A stretch of 21,175 nucleotides of DNA from a virus. The stretch is from positions 1-21,175 of the IMG/VR virus record IMGVR_UViG_3300025168_000819. One strand, 5' to 3'. Each line of letters begins with the position of its first letter. Position 1 is the stretch's first letter. The notes beneath the pieces were generated by a model that made no database searches, had not been told where the DNA came from, and saw only the letters and a program-made list of their open reading frames with translations. A program made the position numbers and the translations under genes. This document shows, one piece after another, positions 1 to 20,424 of the stretch.

Positions 1-1219
1 CTATATCTGCAATTACTCCTGTAGCTGTGACTGCGGCTAAATCAGCTACTATATCAGTAGTAGCAAGTAGATTTAAGTCTGCAACTATATCACTTGTTGC
101 AAGAGTATTCATGTCTTCTATAACTGTATTACCAGAAGCCGAGTTACCTGCTAGTAACGCCATATCAGCTACTACACCTGTGGCAGTCAACTGTGCCATG
201 TCCTCTATTACACCAGTAGCACCTAGTAATCCCATATCAGTTACTACATCAGCAGTTCCAAGTCTAGCTAGGTGACCTGTAGTAGCATGAGTCATTGCGG
301 AAGTTCCAAGTCTAGCTAAGTGACCCGTAGTAGCATGTGCCATTGCACTTGTTCCAAGTAATCCAATCTCAGTAGCTTTACCTGCTACTACACCTATGTC
401 TGTAGCATCTCCTGCTACTGCGGTTACATTATTTGCTATTCCTGCAACAGTAGTTACGTTATCACTTATTCCTGCAACAGTAGCTGAGTTAGTCTTGTCG
501 GTAGCAGTAAGCCAAGTGTTCTCCATGTAGGTCTTGGTAACTACATCATCATTTGCAGTAGGTGCGGCAACCTGTGAAATCTTTCTGTTAGTTGTAGTAC
601 CCGGCTGATATGCTTGATATGCGTTTGTACCAGTGTTATATGGAAGTGCTTTCTCTGCTGTTACCACAGCCTGTTGAGCCATGTGAAACACGTTTTTACT
701 TGAGTTATCTAAGTCCTGCTCTGTTAGAATAGACGCATTACTAAAGTCAACTGAAGGCCCACTTTCATCATTAACCCCTCTTTTTAATTCAATGATGGTT
801 GCATTAGCAGAAAATGTTACATTCTTACCTCCTGAACCATAGAGGGTTGACGAAGTTATTGCACTCTGGTCAACGTAGATTAGCTGGTTAGCTGTGTCAA
901 TGTACCATACAGTATCCGTTGTGGAAGCCCATGTTACATTAGCTCCACCTATAGAAGTGAGTCCATTTAGTTTTGAGTTAGAGATGTCCCCATCCTCAAG
1001 AAACCCTGTTCCAGTAGCGTAAGCAGAATCTGAGTTCCTGTATATTCTTACACCATCTACATATACTTTAAATATGTCCCCACTTGTTGACTTATAAGAA
1101 TCATTAGCTGATGGGGTAAAACCTAAGCTACTATAGTCAAATTTGATCTGGTCAGTATTAAACACTGTTCCAGTCCAGGGATTGTGAATGTAACTAGTTA
1201 GGGTTACTTCTGTTGCCAT
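1..1219 (-). CDS. Tail fibre protein, N-terminal part (runs off left edge)
   Basis: Homologue of the T7 gp17 tail fibre, the receptor-binding appendage fixed to the tail by its N-terminus. I translated it directly: it starts MATEVTLTSYIHNPWTG at 1219 and stays open for 406 codons to the window edge, so the receptor-binding tip is missing. Residues 1 to about 165 look like the T7 fibre N-terminal attachment domain (YVDGVRIYR, LEDGDIS, IIELKRGV, FSNASILTEQDLDNSSKN). Residues 227-237 (VTKTYMENTWL) lead into TVAGI/AVAGD repeats, then two 16-residue repeats (289-320), then 12-residue repeats of the type TATGVVADMALL to the edge, probably a trimeric shaft. The ribosome site is weak (AGG five bases before ATG). 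The gene follows the gp16-like gene after 39 bases, the T7 order. Confident on identity; the host receptor cannot be inferred. Confidence 0.9.
   Translation of the reverse strand, partial: MATEVTLTSYIHNPWTGTVFNTDQIKFDYSSLGFTPSANDSYKSTSGDIFKVYVDGVRIYRNSDSAYATGTGFLEDGDISNSKLNGLTSIGGANVTWASTTDTVWYIDTANQLIYVDQSAITSSTLYGSGGKNVTFSANATIIELKRGVNDESGPSVDFSNASILTEQDLDNSSKNVFHMAQQAVVTAEKALPYNTGTNAYQAYQPGTTTNRKISQVAAPTANDDVVTKTYMENTWLTATDKTNSATVAGISDNVTTVAGIANNVTAVAGDATDIGVVAGKATEIGLLGTSAMAHATTGHLARLGTSAMTHATTGHLARLGTADVVTDMGLLGATGVIEDMAQLTATGVVADMALLAGNSASGNTVIEDMNTLATSDIVADLNLLATTDIVADLAAVTATGVIADI
260..355 (-). repeat. Two tandem 48-bp repeats in tail fibre gene
   Basis: Two adjacent copies (355-308 and 307-260) each encode GTSAM(A/T)HATTGHLARL, differing by one residue. 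They sit between TVAGI-type repeats and the 12-residue repeats that fill positions 1-259. The close DNA match suggests recent duplication or recombination in the fibre shaft. Confidence 0.85.
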
Positions 1220-5477: not shown

Positions 5478-7712
5478 TTATTTTTGTCCCAATTTTTGTC
5501 CCATTAGTGAATAATATTTTGTAGCGATTGCACTTCTCTGTTCTTCTGGAGTATTTGCACCAGTTAAACCAAGTTTCTTATACAAGTCACCTGTACTAGT
5601 GTCACCCATCTTTCCTATTAACTCTAGTCCTTTATCAATACCATCTATGTCGTTCTTATTTAACATACTGTTATCAACTATCCCACTTGTGTTAGCACCT
5701 CTTAGTATGGTTGTCGCTCGATCTATGTCTGTTACTTCTGTTTTATCATCATCCTCATTCTCCTGTGCCCCATCTTTTAATTTTTTCATACTGTCTTTGG
5801 AGAGTGCTTCATCTAATTTAACCTTCAGTGCAGCTTCAAAAGTATCTTTCTCTGTTACTTTAAATGCTTCGTACCCCTTTTTAAACTTATTAGAATGAAA
5901 AATAAGTTCTTCTTTAATTATTTTGTGTACCTCTTTTTGTTTAGCTTGTGCTCTTTCTACTTCAGTTAAAGAAGAAGCTGCATCTTTTCTAACAGTATAA
6001 AGACCCCAACTTTTTGGGTCTAAATCTCCTAACATCCAATTTGGGAAAACACTTGTTAGTTTAGTTCTTAGTTCCTTTAAGGCATCTCCAAGTTGAGGAA
6101 CCTTTCTGTAAGTTGTTAGAGTTGAACCGACAACCTTTAAGTAGTCATTTGATTCTTTATCTAGAGTTTTACCTTCTTCTTTTAGATAGGTTGCTACATC
6201 TAAGTTGAAACTTTTTTCAGACTCAGGAGAAGAATTTTCTATTAGTTCTTCTATTTTAGTAACAAACTCCTTATGTTCTTTATCAGGACTACTTAAGGAA
6301 ACCACTTGTGACACTTCTTCTGCTGTCTTTAAGGCTTTTAAAATCCCATTCCAAATATCTGGATGCCTTACTGCCATGTATCCTTCAATAACCTTTACTC
6401 GTTCTTCCATTGCCTTCTTATCTTCATACCTAGTACCTCCTAATACTATATTATCTGTGGGAAGTGTGTCCTCTTCTATATGTTTATTTAATATGTATCG
6501 CTCATTTAAAGCACGGAATATGGTTTTCTCTTTAGTAAGAGGAGCATCTGTTGCTTTATTTTTTAGGTAAACCACTTTAATCGGTTGTCGGTAAGTACTT
6601 ATTATACCTTTATTTAAAGTATCTACTTCCCTTCTAAAATCCTCTTTTGTTGCAGGTTCCCACTCAGGAAACGCAACATACTCCTTATCTGGATTTTCGT
6701 TTTTTGCACGATTTAAATACCTCATCCAGAGTTCTTGTCTACCCTTTTTATAACTTGTTATAGCTATCTGTTCTGCTTGTAAAACTTCTGCTGTTTTATA
6801 AAGATCAGATGTTCCATCATCTTCCCCTGATATTTCCTCATAAAAACCTTTTATCAAGTTCTCACCATCTGCACCAGAGTCCTTAAAGAAGTCTATGTTG
6901 TTACTACTAACTATTGTTTTTATGTGATTAGCTACTAGTAGCCGTTGATTAGGCTTCACATCAAATTCCAACTCTGTAACCATGTGTGTCAGTATTTCAT
7001 TAGATATACTCTCTGGATTACTACTGAGTTCAATATTTGTTAGTGTGTCATCTGCAAGTAAGTCAGCCGATAACTCAAGTATTTCCCCATCTTTTATTGG
7101 TTTTGCAATTCCACCCTTTCCTATTGCATCAAGACTTACAACAACATCTTTTAATACATTGTCATAACCTTCTTCTCTACTCTCTTTCTGAAAGTTTTCC
7201 CATGCTGTTTTTGTGTCCTTACTTGGATTCGTTTTGAAGTTGTAGTATGTGTCATTTGCTTTTATTCTAAATAATCGTTTCTCTTCCTTTAGTTCTGCCT
7301 CCTGTCGTTTTGAGTCTGATAAGTTCTCTGCATTTAAATTGGATTGAATCTGGTTGTATGTGTCATAAATCAGTTTTCTACCCTTCATTGTTTGGGCATA
7401 GTTACCATGCTTAGTTTCAATCTTAGGAATCAGATCTAAGTAACGTGTGTCATTAGTTTCTTTTGCTTTCATAGCAAGGGAACTAGCACTCCACCAGAGT
7501 ACATCAGTTGGATTAGAACCTTGCTCCATGTACATCTGGTTCTTTAAATTAAAATCCTGTGCTATTCCAGTAAACTTTGCAGATGAGTACCTCTCAGTTC
7601 TTAGTTTAGTTCTGATGTCTTCTTGTTCTTCTTTAGATCTACTTTGTATATCCTTTGCAAAAGAACTAAAGGAATCTGTAGGACTTCCTGTGAACTTGTG
7701 TTTAGGTTCCAT
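5478..7712 (-). CDS. Internal virion protein, gp15-like
   Basis: A 744-residue, mostly helical, highly charged protein without signal peptide or membrane segment. Length and position match T7 gp15 (about 747 residues), the core protein that with gp14 and gp16 forms the ejected channel. Residues about 60-150 (NPTDVLWWSASSLAMKAKE, then YLDLIPKIETKHGNYAQT) resemble a mid-protein region of gp15-type proteins, not their N-terminus; a more N-terminal-looking block sits in the preceding gene (7712-9256). The ATG overlaps that gene's stop codon as TAATG, with AAGGA eight bases upstream, so translation is probably coupled. The C-terminus (KYYSLMGQKLGQK) is not diagnostic. Assignment is from context plus weak resemblance. 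Confidence 0.65.
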   Translation of the reverse strand: MEPKHKFTGSPTDSFSSFAKDIQSRSKEEQEDIRTKLRTERYSSAKFTGIAQDFNLKNQMYMEQGSNPTDVLWWSASSLAMKAKETNDTRYLDLIPKIETKHGNYAQTMKGRKLIYDTYNQIQSNLNAENLSDSKRQEAELKEEKRLFRIKANDTYYNFKTNPSKDTKTAWENFQKESREEGYDNVLKDVVVSLDAIGKGGIAKPIKDGEILELSADLLADDTLTNIELSSNPESISNEILTHMVTELEFDVKPNQRLLVANHIKTIVSSNNIDFFKDSGADGENLIKGFYEEISGEDDGTSDLYKTAEVLQAEQIAITSYKKGRQELWMRYLNRAKNENPDKEYVAFPEWEPATKEDFRREVDTLNKGIISTYRQPIKVVYLKNKATDAPLTKEKTIFRALNERYILNKHIEEDTLPTDNIVLGGTRYEDKKAMEERVKVIEGYMAVRHPDIWNGILKALKTAEEVSQVVSLSSPDKEHKEFVTKIEELIENSSPESEKSFNLDVATYLKEEGKTLDKESNDYLKVVGSTLTTYRKVPQLGDALKELRTKLTSVFPNWMLGDLDPKSWGLYTVRKDAASSLTEVERAQAKQKEVHKIIKEELIFHSNKFKKGYEAFKVTEKDTFEAALKVKLDEALSKDSMKKLKDGAQENEDDDKTEVTDIDRATTILRGANTSGIVDNSMLNKNDIDGIDKGLELIGKMGDTSTGDLYKKLGLTGANTPEEQRSAIATKYYSLMGQKLGQK

Positions 7713-9256
7713 TATAGCATTCCTTCATTAGTAAGTGGAGTATTAATTTCTAATTCTTGCATCACTTTCTTCATAAGATCTTCATTAATTTTCTTAGCTT
7801 CAGGATGCTGATCTAATATATGTTGAGGTGGCATCTTGTATTGGATTTGTAGTCTTCCCTTTCCTTGCCACTTATTTGCCTCAAAAGAACCATATACTTC
7901 TTTAGGTAAGCTACTGTCTGACATTACTCCCTTTAGTATACTGCTAAAAGTACTTTGTATTTTGGGGAGGAACTCCTTAGTCTTAGCTTGATTCATGTAA
8001 CTCATGACTCCATATGTCTCCTTCTTATGTATAGGATTTTGAGCGTCCTTTGCGGGGGCTTCTGCTACTTTTGCGGGAGCTTCTACTACTTTTGCGGGAG
8101 CTTCTACTACTTTTGTTTTCTTAAGTTTATTCTTCATCCTATTGCCTTTACCAGAAGAAGCAGTTACTTCACTTTTTACACTTGCAGTCTCCACAAGGTC
8201 AGGATGATGACTTGCTTTTTTGTATTCTGCTGTAGTTATGTCACCAGCAGGTTTTTCATAAAGCTCTCCCATCTGTGTTTGTAGCTTGTAATCACTAAAT
8301 ATATTCTCACAAGTGGACTGCTCTAAGACAATGGGTAATGTTGGATCAGGCTTCCCATTTACTATAGTAGAAGGATCGTGTGTCTGTCCACCTGTTGATA
8401 TTTTATTACCAAATACTTCAGCAATTAAATCTTTTTGTAATGGGGTAGTGTTCCCTTGTAACCTATCTTCCTTGTCTAATTTAGTATTCCCAAAAGCAAA
8501 CCTATCTAAGAGTGAGAGTTCATTTTCAATAGATTCTTCATTGGCAACTATTGTTTCCATACGTTCATTAGACTTTAATAACTCATTCTCTGCATCAGGA
8601 TCGTCTGCACTGACTTTATACGATGATAACCTAGTTCTTTCTGTTTCCTCTTTATATATCTGAGCTTCATACTGATTATGGTCTTTAGCTTTTGCAGCCA
8701 TAACTGCATCCATTCCGGGCCAGAATGATTCACCCATTATAATAGGGTTCCTAGTCCCGCCATTGCCAACAGTCTCTAAGTCTGGTCTATTACTTTCAAG
8801 CCATGCCTCATTAAATTCATCATGGGTTTTAGGGCCATCTTCAGGTTTATTAAACTTCCACGTATTATACTCTTGTTCATATGAGTTAGCCTTCTTCTGT
8901 AGTACCATTTCAGCATCGGCTGTATCAGTACCCCACTTATAATAAGGATTTTCGGATAGTGGGGAGTTCTCACGGAATTTTTTTAAAGAGCTAGGTTTAG
9001 CACTTTTGTACTCTAGGTACCCTTGTTTCTTGAGTTTTTCATTCTTTTCGTTCTCTGATCTATTATGTGCATCTAAGGCTTTAGGGCCAGATTTCATTAA
9101 GGCACCGAGAAACTGGGACATTTCACTGGCACCCCCGCCTACATCACTTCTTCCAACTGCATTCTTTACTGAAGTAGGAGAGAGGTTCCCTTGGACATAT
9201 GAGGATTCCTTTTGGAATCTTTGGTTCCCCTGCATTAACTCTTTTACACTTGGCAT
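7712..9256 (-). CDS. Internal virion protein, probably N-terminal half of a split gp15
   Basis: A 514-residue hydrophilic protein between the gp14-like and gp15-like genes. Residues about 45-210 (FLGALMKSGPKALDAHN, NPYYKWGTDTADAEMVLQKK, HDEFNEAWLESNRPDL, ESFWPGMDAVMAAKAKDHNQ) recall the N-terminal region of gp15-family internal virion proteins. Around residues 382-403 are three tandem VVEAPAK-type heptads, a Pro/Ala/Lys linker. The last ~100 residues form a separate compact segment (SFEANKWQGKGRLQIQY). It has a strong ribosome site (AGGAGATAA before ATG). It could instead be an unrelated extra core protein. That it is a virion protein is likely from its place in the ejectosome cluster. Confidence 0.6.
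   Translation of the reverse strand: MPSVKELMQGNQRFQKESSYVQGNLSPTSVKNAVGRSDVGGGASEMSQFLGALMKSGPKALDAHNRSENEKNEKLKKQGYLEYKSAKPSSLKKFRENSPLSENPYYKWGTDTADAEMVLQKKANSYEQEYNTWKFNKPEDGPKTHDEFNEAWLESNRPDLETVGNGGTRNPIIMGESFWPGMDAVMAAKAKDHNQYEAQIYKEETERTRLSSYKVSADDPDAENELLKSNERMETIVANEESIENELSLLDRFAFGNTKLDKEDRLQGNTTPLQKDLIAEVFGNKISTGGQTHDPSTIVNGKPDPTLPIVLEQSTCENIFSDYKLQTQMGELYEKPAGDITTAEYKKASHHPDLVETASVKSEVTASSGKGNRMKNKLKKTKVVEAPAKVVEAPAKVAEAPAKDAQNPIHKKETYGVMSYMNQAKTKEFLPKIQSTFSSILKGVMSDSSLPKEVYGSFEANKWQGKGRLQIQYKMPPQHILDQHPEAKKINEDLMKKVMQELEINTPLTNEGML
8049..8111 (-). repeat. Three tandem 21-bp repeats (VEAPAK linker)
   Basis: Three in-frame 21-base units (8049-8069, 8070-8090, 8091-8111); the last two are identical on the plus strand and the first has two changes. 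Each encodes a heptad of the VVEAPAK type. This is typical of slippage-prone flexible linkers. Confidence 0.9.
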
Positions 9257-16963: not shown

Positions 16964-18646
16964 TTACGCTTGACCAGCCATAGCCTGTTGCATCTGCTCC
17001 ATCATCTCAGGGTTCTGAGCCATTTGATCGCTCATACCTTTAGCCATTGCTGGAGTTGCACCTTTAACAACATCACCCATCATTTGAGCTTGTTGTTGTT
17101 CCTGCATTTCTGCTTTTTGGGCTTGCTGTGCTTCAGCTTGCTCTTGTTGAATCTGTTCATCTGTCTTAATTAAACCACCTGTGTCAATACCAAGAGATGC
17201 ACCTAACCTATCCATGTAGTCATCAATGTTTAGTTTCTGTGCAATTACTTCTGGCCCCAAAGGAGCTAGATATTCTAGGAATTGTGATAGTTTGTTAAGA
17301 TCTTGACCCCGACCTAGTGCTTCCATACCTGTGACAATCTTCGGTTTCACTTTGTCTTTTGGAAACTTAGGCATCTTCTTACTCTTAACCATTTTCTGAA
17401 GAAGAAGATTAATTAGCGGTAACTGAAATTCTTGAGATAGAACAGAATAGACACCGCCTAGAGTACTCTCTAGTTCTTGTGCCATGAAGCGTACTTCTTC
17501 TGCTGTTACTCTCTCAGCATCTCGTTGAACAGAAGAGTTAAGTAGAAAAGCCGCAGCTAATCTTTCTTCTATTTTTCCTGCTGTCTCTTGTGCAACTCTG
17601 AAATCTCCAGATTTTTGCACTTGGAGAGTTGATACATCTTGTGCATCACCTTGTATTATTGCACCACTTGGTGCTTCAGCTACAGACCTTATCCTAGTGG
17701 TTCCGTTAGGTCTAACTAAGAACAGGACTTTAGAGGCAGCCGCAGATCCCTCTACTATAGCCATAGTAAGTGCTTCAAGTGACTTCAGGTCACCTAAGTA
17801 CTCTTCTACTAAACCTCTTCCATAGGATTCCCCATCTACTCTACTAAATCTTAGGGGTATAAAAGGGTTCTTATCTATTGGGTACTTACCAAAAGAATCT
17901 GGAATGGTTGTAGTACCTAATTCTTGGTGTACATGCCAGTACTTACCTTTGTTACAAACATAAGTAAATAGCTCATAGGGCTTGTCAGGAGACTCAGGGG
18001 AAAGCTCCTGTGGTGAAGGAAGCCCTAGAGCTACTCTTGCTTTCTCTGGTATAGTTTTTGCATCCAGAGATTCTTTAGTTATTAAGTATAGTAAGTTACC
18101 CATTGGATCACGTTTACACACGTATCTATCAAGGTGGAACACTCTCATACCTGTTTCATCTTCTGGTAAATAAATTAAACAGTTACCAGTTGTGATTAGA
18201 TGCTTCAAGGCTTCAAACACAGGTACTCTGTAGGCGTGTGATTCTATCTCGTTCATCGCAGAGCGTTCAATCTTAGCTAAACCTTCTTCAACTGCACCCC
18301 TTTGTTCTGCACCTGTTAGTTCTTGTAGATCGAAATCATCTATAGTAAGTCTAAAGAAAGGTGAGTTAGGTGGTAACAATGTAAGCAATAATTTACTTGC
18401 TAAGTGGTTCACTCCACGTGCACCAATACCTTGGTAGGGAGTTTTAAAGGTTGTTGACCAGTTCGCACCTGAGTCTTTTAATAAGGAAGGGATTGTTACT
18501 TTAGCACACTCTCTAGCTCTATTAAGGTATGACTCTCTCTCACTGAAGGCTTGCTCATACATACTTTTGAGCATACCCTTCTCAGCATATGTGTCATCTT
18601 GTGTATCGTCTACCATGTTTCTCGGTTGGGCTAGGGATTTAGGCAT
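16964..18646 (-). CDS. Portal protein (head-tail connector, gp8-like)
   Basis: A 560-residue homologue of T7 gp8 (536 residues), the dodecameric ring through which DNA is packaged and ejected and on which the tail is built. The signatures YQGIGARGVNHLASKL (71-86) and LPPNSPFFRL (91-100) are diagnostic; FIPLRFSRVDGESYGRGLVE and TAEEVRFMAQELESTLGGVYS continue the family pattern. The C-terminal ~70 residues are Gln/Met-rich (EQIQQEQAEAQQAQ, then NPEMMEQMQQAMAG) and probably form a flexible or coiled tail. It starts after a three-base gap from the upstream stop with AGGAG eleven bases before the ATG. A second Met at residue 11 is possible, but the first fits the family length better. Confidence 0.97.
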   Translation of the reverse strand: MPKSLAQPRNMVDDTQDDTYAEKGMLKSMYEQAFSERESYLNRARECAKVTIPSLLKDSGANWSTTFKTPYQGIGARGVNHLASKLLLTLLPPNSPFFRLTIDDFDLQELTGAEQRGAVEEGLAKIERSAMNEIESHAYRVPVFEALKHLITTGNCLIYLPEDETGMRVFHLDRYVCKRDPMGNLLYLITKESLDAKTIPEKARVALGLPSPQELSPESPDKPYELFTYVCNKGKYWHVHQELGTTTIPDSFGKYPIDKNPFIPLRFSRVDGESYGRGLVEEYLGDLKSLEALTMAIVEGSAAASKVLFLVRPNGTTRIRSVAEAPSGAIIQGDAQDVSTLQVQKSGDFRVAQETAGKIEERLAAAFLLNSSVQRDAERVTAEEVRFMAQELESTLGGVYSVLSQEFQLPLINLLLQKMVKSKKMPKFPKDKVKPKIVTGMEALGRGQDLNKLSQFLEYLAPLGPEVIAQKLNIDDYMDRLGASLGIDTGGLIKTDEQIQQEQAEAQQAQKAEMQEQQQAQMMGDVVKGATPAMAKGMSDQMAQNPEMMEQMQQAMAGQA

Positions 18647-18649
18647 TTA

Positions 18650-19237
18650 CTACTGTGCTCCTACTTTTCTGAGTGCTCGTTTACCTTTAGCACCCATCTT
18701 AGCTTTTTTACCTTTTGCTGCCTCAGCTTGTTTCATAGATACCTTGCTACCACCTCCCCCAACTTTTTCACTTCCTCCGGGTGTAGCACTAGATCCCGGT
18801 GTATCTTCACTACCCGGTTCATCTGATTTATGAAGACCAAGTTTCTGCATACCCCCTTTAAATTGGTCTGCGGCTGTATGGGCAAACGCTTTACCAGCAT
18901 CAGCCGCTGTTGCAAGATTGGTCTTTGTAGCATCTGCGGCATCATGCATAGCTTCTTTACCAGCATCAGTAGCAGTTTCAATATTGGTCTTTGTAGCATC
19001 TGCGGCATCATGCATAGCTTCTTTACCAGCATCAGTAGCAGTTTCAATATTAGTCTTTGCAGCGTCTGCGGCATCACTACCAGTTTTCTTAGCCTTGTCG
19101 ATAACTTTTCCTCCAAAGGATGCTAATCCACCTCCACCACTTCCACCTCCAAAGCATAGGTTCCTATTTGTATGATCAAAGTTGAACCTATGTTCCTCGG
19201 CTCGTAGGTCATCTAGTATCTTAATGTAATCTTTCAT
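18650..19237 (-). CDS. Small Gly/Lys-rich protein with LEA-like 22-residue repeats
   Basis: A 195-residue protein that I do not recognise as a named family. Layout: a short helix (1-25), CFGGGSGGGG (28-37), three tandem 22-residue repeats at 55-120, a Pro/Gly/Ser linker (about 138-165), and a very basic C-terminus (GKKAKMGAKGKRALRKVGAQ, 176-195). Each repeat is two 11-mers of the form xAxDAxKxx(I/M/L)x, which would make an amphipathic helix of the LEA group 3 or synuclein type. Position just before the portal, the Gly-rich N-terminal patch and the basic tail recall T7 gp6.7 and gp7.3, small virion proteins of tail and ejectosome, but alignment is not convincing. Good ribosome site (AAGGG six bases before ATG), nine bases after the preceding stop. 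Confidence 0.75.
   Translation of the reverse strand: MKDYIKILDDLRAEEHRFNFDHTNRNLCFGGGSGGGGLASFGGKVIDKAKKTGSDAADAAKTNIETATDAGKEAMHDAADATKTNIETATDAGKEAMHDAADATKTNLATAADAGKAFAHTAADQFKGGMQKLGLHKSDEPGSEDTPGSSATPGGSEKVGGGGSKVSMKQAEAAKGKKAKMGAKGKRALRKVGAQ
18878..19075 (-). repeat. Three tandem 66-bp repeats
   Basis: 198 bases hold exactly three in-frame 66-base units encoding residues 55-120 of the LEA-like protein. The stretch 18921-18986 and its next copy 18987-19052 are nearly identical in DNA, differing at the final base, while the portion nearest the 3' end of the gene is more diverged. This implies a recent internal duplication on top of an older one. Confidence 0.92.
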
Positions 19238-19246
19238 AGTTACCCT

Positions 19247-19612
19247 TTACTTCTTTTTAGCATATAAGGACGCTTTACCGCCAGTTTTCTTTGATTTATC
19301 TTTACTGAGATCAGCTTTCTTACCTGTTCCCTTAGATGAAGCTGTTGATTTGTTAGAGTAGTTAGCACTTGCAGAGCCATCACTACCGCCACCGCTATCA
19401 TTACCACCACCCATAAGACCCATAGCTTGTAATCCTTTTGTAGTCTCTCTACCAACAGCACCCACTGTATTATCTAGTGAACCTTCTAAATTTTTCTCTG
19501 CTGTTTTAGCTAACTCGTTAGTCTGTCTCTCTGTGTGCTCTTGTAGTCTACCTAACTTAGCACTAGTATATCTGTTAGCACTACCAAAAGCATCGGCTGT
19601 TGATCCTCCCAT
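19247..19612 (-). CDS. Hypothetical Gly/Ser/Lys-rich small protein
   Basis: A 121-residue protein of unknown family. Residues 1-65 are likely helical (NRYTSAKLGRLQEHTERQ, then ELAKTAEKNLEGSLDNTVGA); residues 70-90 are Gly/Ser/Asn-rich (LMGGGNDSGGGSDGSASAN); the C-terminus is Lys-rich (KKTGGKASLYAKKK). The helix-glycine-basic plan is shared with the neighbours at 18650-19237 and 20016-20267 and with T7 gp7.3, which ends in a GGKKSLSVARS-type tail; a small tail or ejected protein is a reasonable inference only. It starts one base after the previous stop with AAGGA six bases before the ATG; translation is probably coupled. Confidence 0.72.
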   Translation of the reverse strand: MGGSTADAFGSANRYTSAKLGRLQEHTERQTNELAKTAEKNLEGSLDNTVGAVGRETTKGLQAMGLMGGGNDSGGGSDGSASANYSNKSTASSKGTGKKADLSKDKSKKTGGKASLYAKKK

Positions 19613-19613
19613 T

Positions 19614-19994
19614 TTAGTTCCTTATAAATAATGTCCAATCATCATTACCATCTCCCTTGTAAAGCTCAAGACCTCCTCCAACTCTACTAGTTAAAGTCTT
19701 ATAGTAAGATGACTTAGGATGACATGGTATAACATAAGACTCATGATTCTCTTGATTCATTAGTGTATCAAGAGACTGAAATATTGTAACTGAATCTCTG
19801 TTGGTTACTTTAGTTGAGTGCATCCACCAGTAAACTGTTGGTGAAACTGTGGAGAAAGAACCAACTATTTCTCCCTCTTTTATTACAACATGGGTGGGAT
19901 AGAGGGGTTGTCTATTATCTGCTAGTCCCGCACTCATTACTGAATCTAACAACTCCTTTGAGTTGATAGGGTAAATTTGTAAATCTGTTATCAT
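19614..19994 (-). CDS. Hypothetical protein, probable GNAT-type fold
   Basis: A 126-residue protein. Its strand-helix plan parallels the gp13-like protein at 9856-10323: THVVIKEGEIVGSFS (34-48) against YTLFLNMDIVGIFGV, VYWWMHSTKVT (54-64) against VVWLMGSDNLT, then a helix, SYVIPCHPKSSYYKTL against NYVDERNTTTSKWL, and a final strand WTLFIRN against FNLFLKE. I infer a degenerate GNAT fold, possibly a distant paralogue. No acetyl-CoA loop motif is visible. Unlike almost all genes here it has no Shine-Dalgarno sequence before its ATG (the upstream bases are ACACACACGTT); a later Met at residue 20 has AAGGAG but too far away. It is 21 bases after the previous stop. Confidence 0.7.
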   Translation of the reverse strand: MITDLQIYPINSKELLDSVMSAGLADNRQPLYPTHVVIKEGEIVGSFSTVSPTVYWWMHSTKVTNRDSVTIFQSLDTLMNQENHESYVIPCHPKSSYYKTLTSRVGGGLELYKGDGNDDWTLFIRN

Positions 19995-20015: not shown

Positions 20016-20267
20016 TTACTTGTTACCCGCTTTCTTCTGTGTATGTCCTGATAAACCTCCTCCTTTATACTTTGAGTGGGATGTGCTTTTACCTTTAGAT
20101 CCTTTGACTCTATACTTCCTATGTTTACCTGTACTAGTCTCTTGCCCAACCTTTTTTGGAGCCGCTAGTTCCAATTCTGCTTGTGATATTTCTGGTCTGT
20201 CTACTTCAGCAGGTGGTGGAATAGGGGGTGGCATTTTAGGTATTGGCGGTGATGTTCTCCCACCCAT
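20016..20267 (-). CDS. Hypothetical Pro-rich/basic small protein
   Basis: An 83-residue protein of unknown family: a Pro-rich N-terminus (MGGRTSPPIPKMPPPIPPPA), a short acidic helix (EISQAELELAAP) and a Gly/Lys/Ser/His-rich basic C-terminus (KHRKYRVKGSKGKSTSHS, then GGGLSGHTQKKAGNK). I chose the ATG at 20267 because GAGG lies six bases before it; upstream in-frame starts (ATG at 20273, TTG at 20303) are worse placed. It overlaps the end of the preceding gene by 32 bases. Similar MGG/Pro-rich small proteins occur before portal genes in marine T7-like phages, as far as I recall; a small tail or virion protein is likely but unproven. Confidence 0.68.
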   Translation of the reverse strand: MGGRTSPPIPKMPPPIPPPAEVDRPEISQAELELAAPKKVGQETSTGKHRKYRVKGSKGKSTSHSKYKGGGLSGHTQKKAGNK

Positions 20268-20424
20268 TATCATCCTCGTATAGTTGTTTAAGCCGTTCAA
20301 CAACAGACTGTTGACCTTGTAGAAAGCACAGTTCTGCTTGTGAAGTATCTTTAGGAGGTAACTTATTAGGAAACATCCTATCTAGATACGAAAGTAAATC
20401 TTTGGTAACTAAGTTATAGTCCAT
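20236..20424 (-). CDS. Small conserved-looking protein of unknown function
   Basis: A 62-residue protein (MDYNLVTKDLLSYLDRMFPN at the start, then QAELCFLQGQQSVVERLKQL). It is predicted helical, soluble, and without metal or catalytic motifs. It is the first gene after the ribonucleotide reductase, 17 bases from its stop, and its ATG lies inside the element at 20405-20433, which recurs before the tail fibre. Its ribosome site is poor (GTGGA five bases before ATG). The pattern YLDRxFP...GQ..V looks like a small conserved protein of marine T7-like phages, but I cannot name it. Confidence 0.68.
   Translation of the reverse strand: MDYNLVTKDLLSYLDRMFPNKLPPKDTSQAELCFLQGQQSVVERLKQLYEDDNGWENITANT

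Follow-up and report, generated by a model that had tools for sequence, protein, structure and literature searches.

Directly 5' of the portal gene of an uncultured, marine, short-tailed T7-like podovirus lies a gene whose 195-aa product combines conserved ends with a rapidly changing array of 11-residue repeats. Judging from its sequence and position, this product could well be a minor portal or tail-channel virion protein of the gp6.7/gp7.3 functional class that is ejected when infection starts. The window, i.e. the whole stretch of DNA analysed, is a 21,175-base IMG/VR virus record in which profile matches identified a T7-like gene set with gp13-like, gp14-like, tail tubular A and portal products (Table 1). 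The 195-aa ORF is a real gene because it is served by a Shine-Dalgarno-like site (AAAGGG), its stop is located 3 nt ahead of the portal start and both of its ends are under purifying constraint when compared to the relative L014 (dN/dS of 0.18/0.55 for the N-terminal 33 aa and of 0.21/0.79 for the last 70 aa).

Table 1. Location in the window of the portal region genes and of the segments of the 195-aa protein.
Feature	Position	Strand	Evidence
Portal (head-tail connector, T7 gp8 type)	16964..18646	-	PF12236 3.5e-92; phrog_449 1.4e-187
195-aa portal-adjacent protein	18650..19237	-	ORF; RBS-like AAAGGG; same-slot homologues; constrained ends
Basic C-terminal tail, aa 166-195	18653..18742	-	invariant G185, K186, R187, L189 (GKRALRK)
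Helix end TAADQFKGGMQ, aa 121-131	18845..18877	-	alignment; AF2 helix 92-132, low confidence
Six 11-mers (three 22-residue double units), aa 55-120	18878..19075	-	
Gly-rich patch and helix start, aa 34-54	19076..19138	-	
N-terminal leader, type A, aa 1-33: MKDYIKILDDLRAEEHRFNFDHTNRNLCFGGGS	19139..19237	-	alignments; 12 viral loci
121-aa neighbour	19247..19612	-	Gly start; basic tail GGKASLYAKKK; weak lag-11 signal
126-aa protein, T7 gene 7 position	19614..19994	-	homologue precedes leader-A protein in phage L221
Pro-rich small protein with basic tail, T7 gp6.7 position	20016..20303	-	weak phrog_13568 match, E=0.005
62-aa Bbp19-like protein, T7 gp6.5 position	20236..20424	-	phrog_4970 8.7e-8; weak hhalign to T7 gp6.5

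The 11-mers of the array read DAADAAKTNIE, TATDAGKEAMH, DAADATKTNIE, TATDAGKEAMH, DAADATKTNLA and TAADAGKAFAH. The original prediction had described six units of the form xAxDAxKxx(I/M/L)x; its limits for the array proved exact and five of the six units fit the pattern, while the sixth carries F at position 9 and A at position 10. At the DNA level, TRF detected this repeat with a period of 66 (2.8 copies, 93%). The 66-bp units had been called near-identical, which is true of units 1 and 2 (63/66 identical), a recent 22-residue duplication, but not of units 2 and 3 (54/66). That the repeat arose by chance or as an assembly artefact was rejected since homologues carry in-frame arrays in the same slot. 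The long amphipathic helix that had been predicted was borne out as a design, both in relatives (see below) and in the window, where the hydrophobic moment of the array peaks at 98 degrees, as for an 11/3 helix, with none of 2000 permutations being as strong. Residue self-similarity was found at lag 11 (z=6.2) and lag 22 (z=8-11), and the protein is the sole one with an 11-residue periodicity among 15 window proteins tested, the 14 others having no lag-11 signal at p<0.05; for the 121-aa neighbour, the weak signal corresponds to z=2.4. AF2 predicts two helices (residues 43-88 and 92-132) at low confidence, with a mean pLDDT of ca. 45. The Gly-rich patch (ca. aa 30-43) and the basic tail (net charge of +9 over 30 residues) that were said to flank the helix are both present, and TAADQFKGGMQ corresponds to a degenerate further 11-mer leading into GMQKLGLHK.D.PGS, which is kept in close relatives.

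Tandem repeats were also seen elsewhere in the window. In a tail-fibre-like ORF (2-1219, minus strand), 48-bp and 30-bp repeats at 254-483 encode 16-residue LGTSAMAHATTGHLAR units, and a 21-bp repeat encoding KVVEAPA units (8049-8115) is located within a 514-aa internal protein (7712-9256).

The close relatives of the portal are all uncultured, the best isolates being 48-56% identical over the portal. In about 26 relatives whose portals are >70% identical, the portal is directly preceded on its 5' side by a gene of the same plan: Cys-Gly-Gly closes the leader, a linker and a helical array of 11-residue units come next, and the protein usually finishes with a basic tail GK(R/K)xLRK. Invariant residues in a 15-sequence alignment are mostly found at the ends (K2, D9, D10 and C28, and the tail residues of Table 1), and a Pro/Lys/Ile linker such as LPKIKIKLPEIKIGGS occurs in relatives where the window protein has aa 34-54. 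There are two types of leader: type A, MKEYIKILDDLRPEE..NLCFGG, is that of the window, is conserved and ends in the invariant Cys28 followed by Gly, while type B reads MKIYTEINYEW.DG..SFDYEGE..LC; no leader of either type is present in the slot proteins of L015 and L035. The middle of the protein differs even where portals are 98% identical (L008), and what is conserved of the repeat in homologues, where its conservation had been at stake, is an 11-residue design and not a sequence. Lag-11 scores of z>3 were obtained for 28 of the 36 slot proteins and for 34 of the 58 distinct leader-B proteins, with no lag-11 signal in the slot proteins of L034, L033, L040 and L105-L107. The periodicity is kept after decay of the DNA repeat, for example in L011, L016 and L028, and the window-like 22-mer DATKTNLEYGADATKEAL is also present in L120, whose portal is 56% identical. 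For the L039 protein, AF2 gives one 95-residue helix at a pLDDT of about 70 together with an N-terminal beta-hairpin (leader B). Regular 11-mers (EGSAGIESIKE) are also found in a portal-adjacent protein of L037 (2-1018), and L168 (2189-4132) encodes a 647-aa leader-B protein (lag-11 z=11) located directly upstream of another large ORF. A PHROGs search with the window protein returned no match, a genome-contig scan using the C-terminal motif found no relative, and tblastn searches of 50,697 phage records with the window protein, its relatives in L103 and L009 and both leaders gave chance matches only. No isolate among these records carries the array protein, and we infer its virion presence and function from sequence.

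The array changes fast in number and in sequence while relatives keep the design. In the first case, L009 and L010 differ by one 11-mer (GAAALDAGKEA) whereas their centre and C-terminus are nearly identical (dS of about 0.02), as expected from the suggestion that copy number may vary between strains. In the second case, the 309 flanking codons of L018 (808-1989) and L039 (3820-5001) are the same apart from one synonymous change, whereas their 85 repeat codons differ at 53 nucleotides and 28 residues, with length unchanged and both arrays still 11-periodic. As the L039 form comes from two samples, a simple assembly error is less likely for that array; homogenisation, recombination or an assembly effect may account for the differences between the two. 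Such turnover, together with the near-identity of units 1 and 2 and the in-frame deletions that are tolerated in the middle of T7 gp7.3 (PMC12798971), is what would be expected if only the ends mattered and the array were an elastic spacer, whose low-complexity sequence is tolerated as a linker and spreads by replication slippage. This is nevertheless unlikely, given that the periodicity outlives the decay of the DNA repeat, that the L018 and L039 arrays remain 11-periodic at constant length despite 28 changed residues and that DATKTNLEYGADATKEAL recurs in L120.

The conserved property is the 11/3 geometry; charge-based binding of lipid or DNA is not conserved, since array charge and lipid-binding scores vary among relatives. 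Net charge per 11-mer extends from -1.17 in the window to +1.05 in L039 (about -1.2 to +1.05 across the family). A HeliQuest-type discriminant, for which the usual lipid-binding threshold is 0.68, was scored over 18-residue windows, and 0% of these lie above the threshold in the arrays of the window, L014 and L120, as opposed to 51-65% in the cationic array of L039. The lipid binding put forward in the original prediction is thus not supported for the acidic array of the window, although the cationic arrays of some relatives do score. A LEA/synuclein-like membership was not upheld either: the Pfam Apolipoprotein model gives 20 bits with the window protein for a cut-off of 90, and no LEA or synuclein model matches it in the Pfam profile search. 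LEA group 3, apolipoprotein, synuclein and perilipin 11-mer proteins share the alpha-11/3 amphipathic design with the window array but are cellular proteins, and the window protein falls below Pfam cut-offs; the likeness is probably convergent, and the protein probably belongs to the DNA-ejection machinery rather than to desiccation-type proteins.

The 11/3 amphipathic helices of apolipoproteins and synuclein bind lipids, and the array might fold in a similar way on the outer-membrane surface during ejection, where it would contribute to opening or sealing the DNA channel. The window, L039, L098 and L120 proteins match Apolipoprotein weakly, and these matches, the scores of the L039 array and the function of T7 gp14/gp6.7 at the outer membrane (PMC11784390) point in this direction, whereas the acidic window array has no scoring 18-residue window, as in L014 and L120, array charge is not conserved and the nonpolar face is mostly Ala/Thr. 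Membrane action is rather unlikely and is not the best-supported reading of the array. The same charge data bear on a head-internal protein that would pack or condense DNA, as its strongly basic tail could suggest; with an acidic array in the window, an array charge that is not conserved and a basic portion confined to the tail, this has hardly any probability.

The link to the DNA-ejection apparatus that had been proposed agrees with gene order. In the window, the succession Bbp19-like, Pro-rich basic, 126 aa, 121 aa, 195 aa and portal parallels T7 6.5-6.7-7-7.3-(7.7)-8, and that of relatives is Bbp19-like, a small MC-start basic gene, (acetyltransferase-like), slot protein and portal. By this order, the 195-aa protein lies in the T7 gene 7.3 position, beside the portal, and the 121-aa gene is the extra one in the window. 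The correspondence is one of synteny and not of orthology by sequence, since the profile comparison of the Bbp19-like protein with T7 gp6.5 is weak (E=0.04) and that of T7 gp7 with the 126-aa protein and GNAT-looking proteins gave no signal. The window protein matches neither the gp7.3 (PF11653/phrog_1320) nor the gp6.7 (PF17570/phrog_1391) profiles. In distant relatives with portals 57-65% identical to that of the window, the gp7.3-like phrog_1320 is matched 5' of the portal (9.8e-7 in L050, 2.1e-4 in L046 and 3.6e-4 in L084), as it is by a small protein 5' of the portal of LUZ100 (5.7e-10), and gp6.7-like proteins are encoded on this side of the portal in some more distant relatives. The C-terminal profile of the family aligns GKRxLRK with GKKxLR of gp7.3-like tails (score of 12.5, with 1 of 200 shuffled-column controls as high), the alignment of T7 gp7.3 itself to the motif being ambiguous. 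Among the neighbours, the tail GGKASLYA of the 121-aa protein is similar to GGKKSLSVA of T7 gp7.3, and the weak phrog_13568 match of the Pro-rich protein, whose true start is probably an internal ATG, is common to small portal-adjacent proteins of other podoviruses.

In T7, six copies of gp7.3 occupy the adaptor-nozzle junction of the tail channel, where K84/K85 lie on the DNA end and residues 1-83 are unresolved around the DNA; twelve copies of gp6.7 occur between the portal barrel and the core, and both proteins are ejected (PMC11784390). Like gp7.3, the window protein is small, is encoded 5' of the portal (with an HNH gene in between in T7) and has a basic C-terminal cluster, and the variable middle of its family recalls the deletion-tolerant centre of gp7.3, whose N-terminus is helical and basic. 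Unlike gp7.3, it is twice as long, has a leader and an acidic 11-mer array, and is devoid of a SGGGINI-type (SGxxNI) C-terminal end as well as of a profile match. Likeness to gp6.7 is seen in relatives, where Cys-Phe-...PKIK.P follows the leader (CFGG..LPKIKIKLP, compared to MCFSPKIKTPK), and in the tail GKRALRKV (compared to GRKGLKV); the similarity of the starts is marginal, 6 of 150 shuffles being as good, and the window protein lacks PKIK, which in gp6.7 belongs to the start of portal-binding loop I (CFSPKIKTPK). A 95-aa protein is a better gp6.7/slot orthologue in the window genome than the 195-aa protein.

Leader-B proteins are located directly before the portal in 53 of the 63 evaluable loci, which include two portal families (phrog_449 and phrog_332). 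In the podoviruses L212 (2305-3051, minus strand) and L213 (2326-3063, plus strand), which also carry leader B on their portal-adjacent protein, a second copy (MKIYTE..SFDYEGP) is joined exactly to the first residue of gp14, which is assigned in L212 by a T7_gp14 match (2.5e-9, profile from residue 40) and in L213 by position only. In T7, gp14 is an ejected outer-membrane pore protein. Leader B further occurs in uncultured marine myoviruses (L193, 2501-3547, and also L187 and L188) on a T4-type baseplate tail-tube cap gp48 (phrog_230 2.4e-56) that is followed by gp53. The carriers of leader B are portal-adjacent, tail-lumen or ejection proteins. Shared as it is by unrelated virion proteins, leader B might serve as a docking tag or be linked to the host. 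The link of the window protein to gp14 is indirect because it has leader A, and LC-GG was the only part aligned in a profile comparison of the two leaders. In L221 (2092-3481; see also L223, 2501-3487), which is a different phage type, a homologue of the 126-aa protein precedes a leader-A protein whose body is entirely different, and this block seems to move horizontally with leader A. The slot protein might also be a non-virion product, either an assembly factor or a host-takeover protein, lying beside the portal by chance, as the T7 7.7 HNH product of the same stretch is not part of the virion. This is very improbable when the slot next to the portal is conserved in both portal families and leader B is also carried by the structural proteins gp14 and gp48.

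The original prediction was aware of no described phage protein of such design, yet 11-residue designs are already known in phages, as repeat units in siphophage tape-measure proteins (PMC3271669) and as the hendecads from which the tube of phiX174 H is built (PMC7354561); our literature searches on LEA-like or 11-mer phage virion proteins gave nothing relevant beyond the latter paper. Slot proteins resemble tape-measure proteins of the tail lumen by their 11-residue units in variable number, some of them Trp-marked (W every 11 in L022 and L039), and have weak PHROG tape-measure matches. They differ by their length of 195-400 aa and by belonging to phages with a T7-like, short-tail gene set and not to long-tailed phages in which protein length sets tail length. 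In the DNA pilot protein H of phiX174, hendecad helices form a DNA tube. When compared to the hendecad sequence tabulated for H (PMC7354561), the window array is similar in moment (0.26 vs 0.33), charge per 11-mer (-1.17 vs -0.67) and discriminant (-0.42 vs -0.35), a resemblance that favours helix-helix packing, although the sequences are unrelated and the inner face of H is Gln/Asn/Arg. As far as our searches show, it is new for a portal-adjacent protein of a podovirus to carry such an array, for the array to turn over while the ends are conserved and for the leaders to be exchangeable.

In the portal or tail-channel role that we favour, the conserved ends of the 195-aa protein would anchor it, with the leader and Cys-Gly start on the N-terminal side and the basic GKRxLRK tail touching the portal, the nozzle or the DNA end. 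The middle, with about 75-90 residues, would adopt an amphipathic alpha-11/3 helix (100-130 A if straight) and pack against its own copies or channel partners as a helical element that fills the lumen or extends the channel. Because we propose that the 11-residue packing geometry alone matters, drift in unit number, sequence and charge would then be tolerated. It is decidedly doubtful, if conceivable, that marine podoviruses possess a modular channel protein whose exchangeable leader docks in the portal or tail lumen and whose lengthening array is a DNA-conducting helical sleeve; leader B, a predicted beta-hairpin, is also prefixed to gp14 and to the myovirus tail-tube cap, and such a sleeve would bring to short-tailed phages a principle akin to that of the H tube or of tape-measure proteins.

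Minor portal and tail-channel proteins of podoviruses are important for infection and fast-evolving. Their orthologues often go unrecognised, as in Peru-2 and ICP3 (PMC13320782). The slot family described here combines a hypervariable 11-residue helix array with conserved ends on either side of it, position together with periodicity offers a way to detect such portal-adjacent proteins, and the N-terminal leaders tie slot proteins to the ejection machinery. Should the DNA channel be lined by the array, the number of units and their register would be testable variables of DNA ejection.
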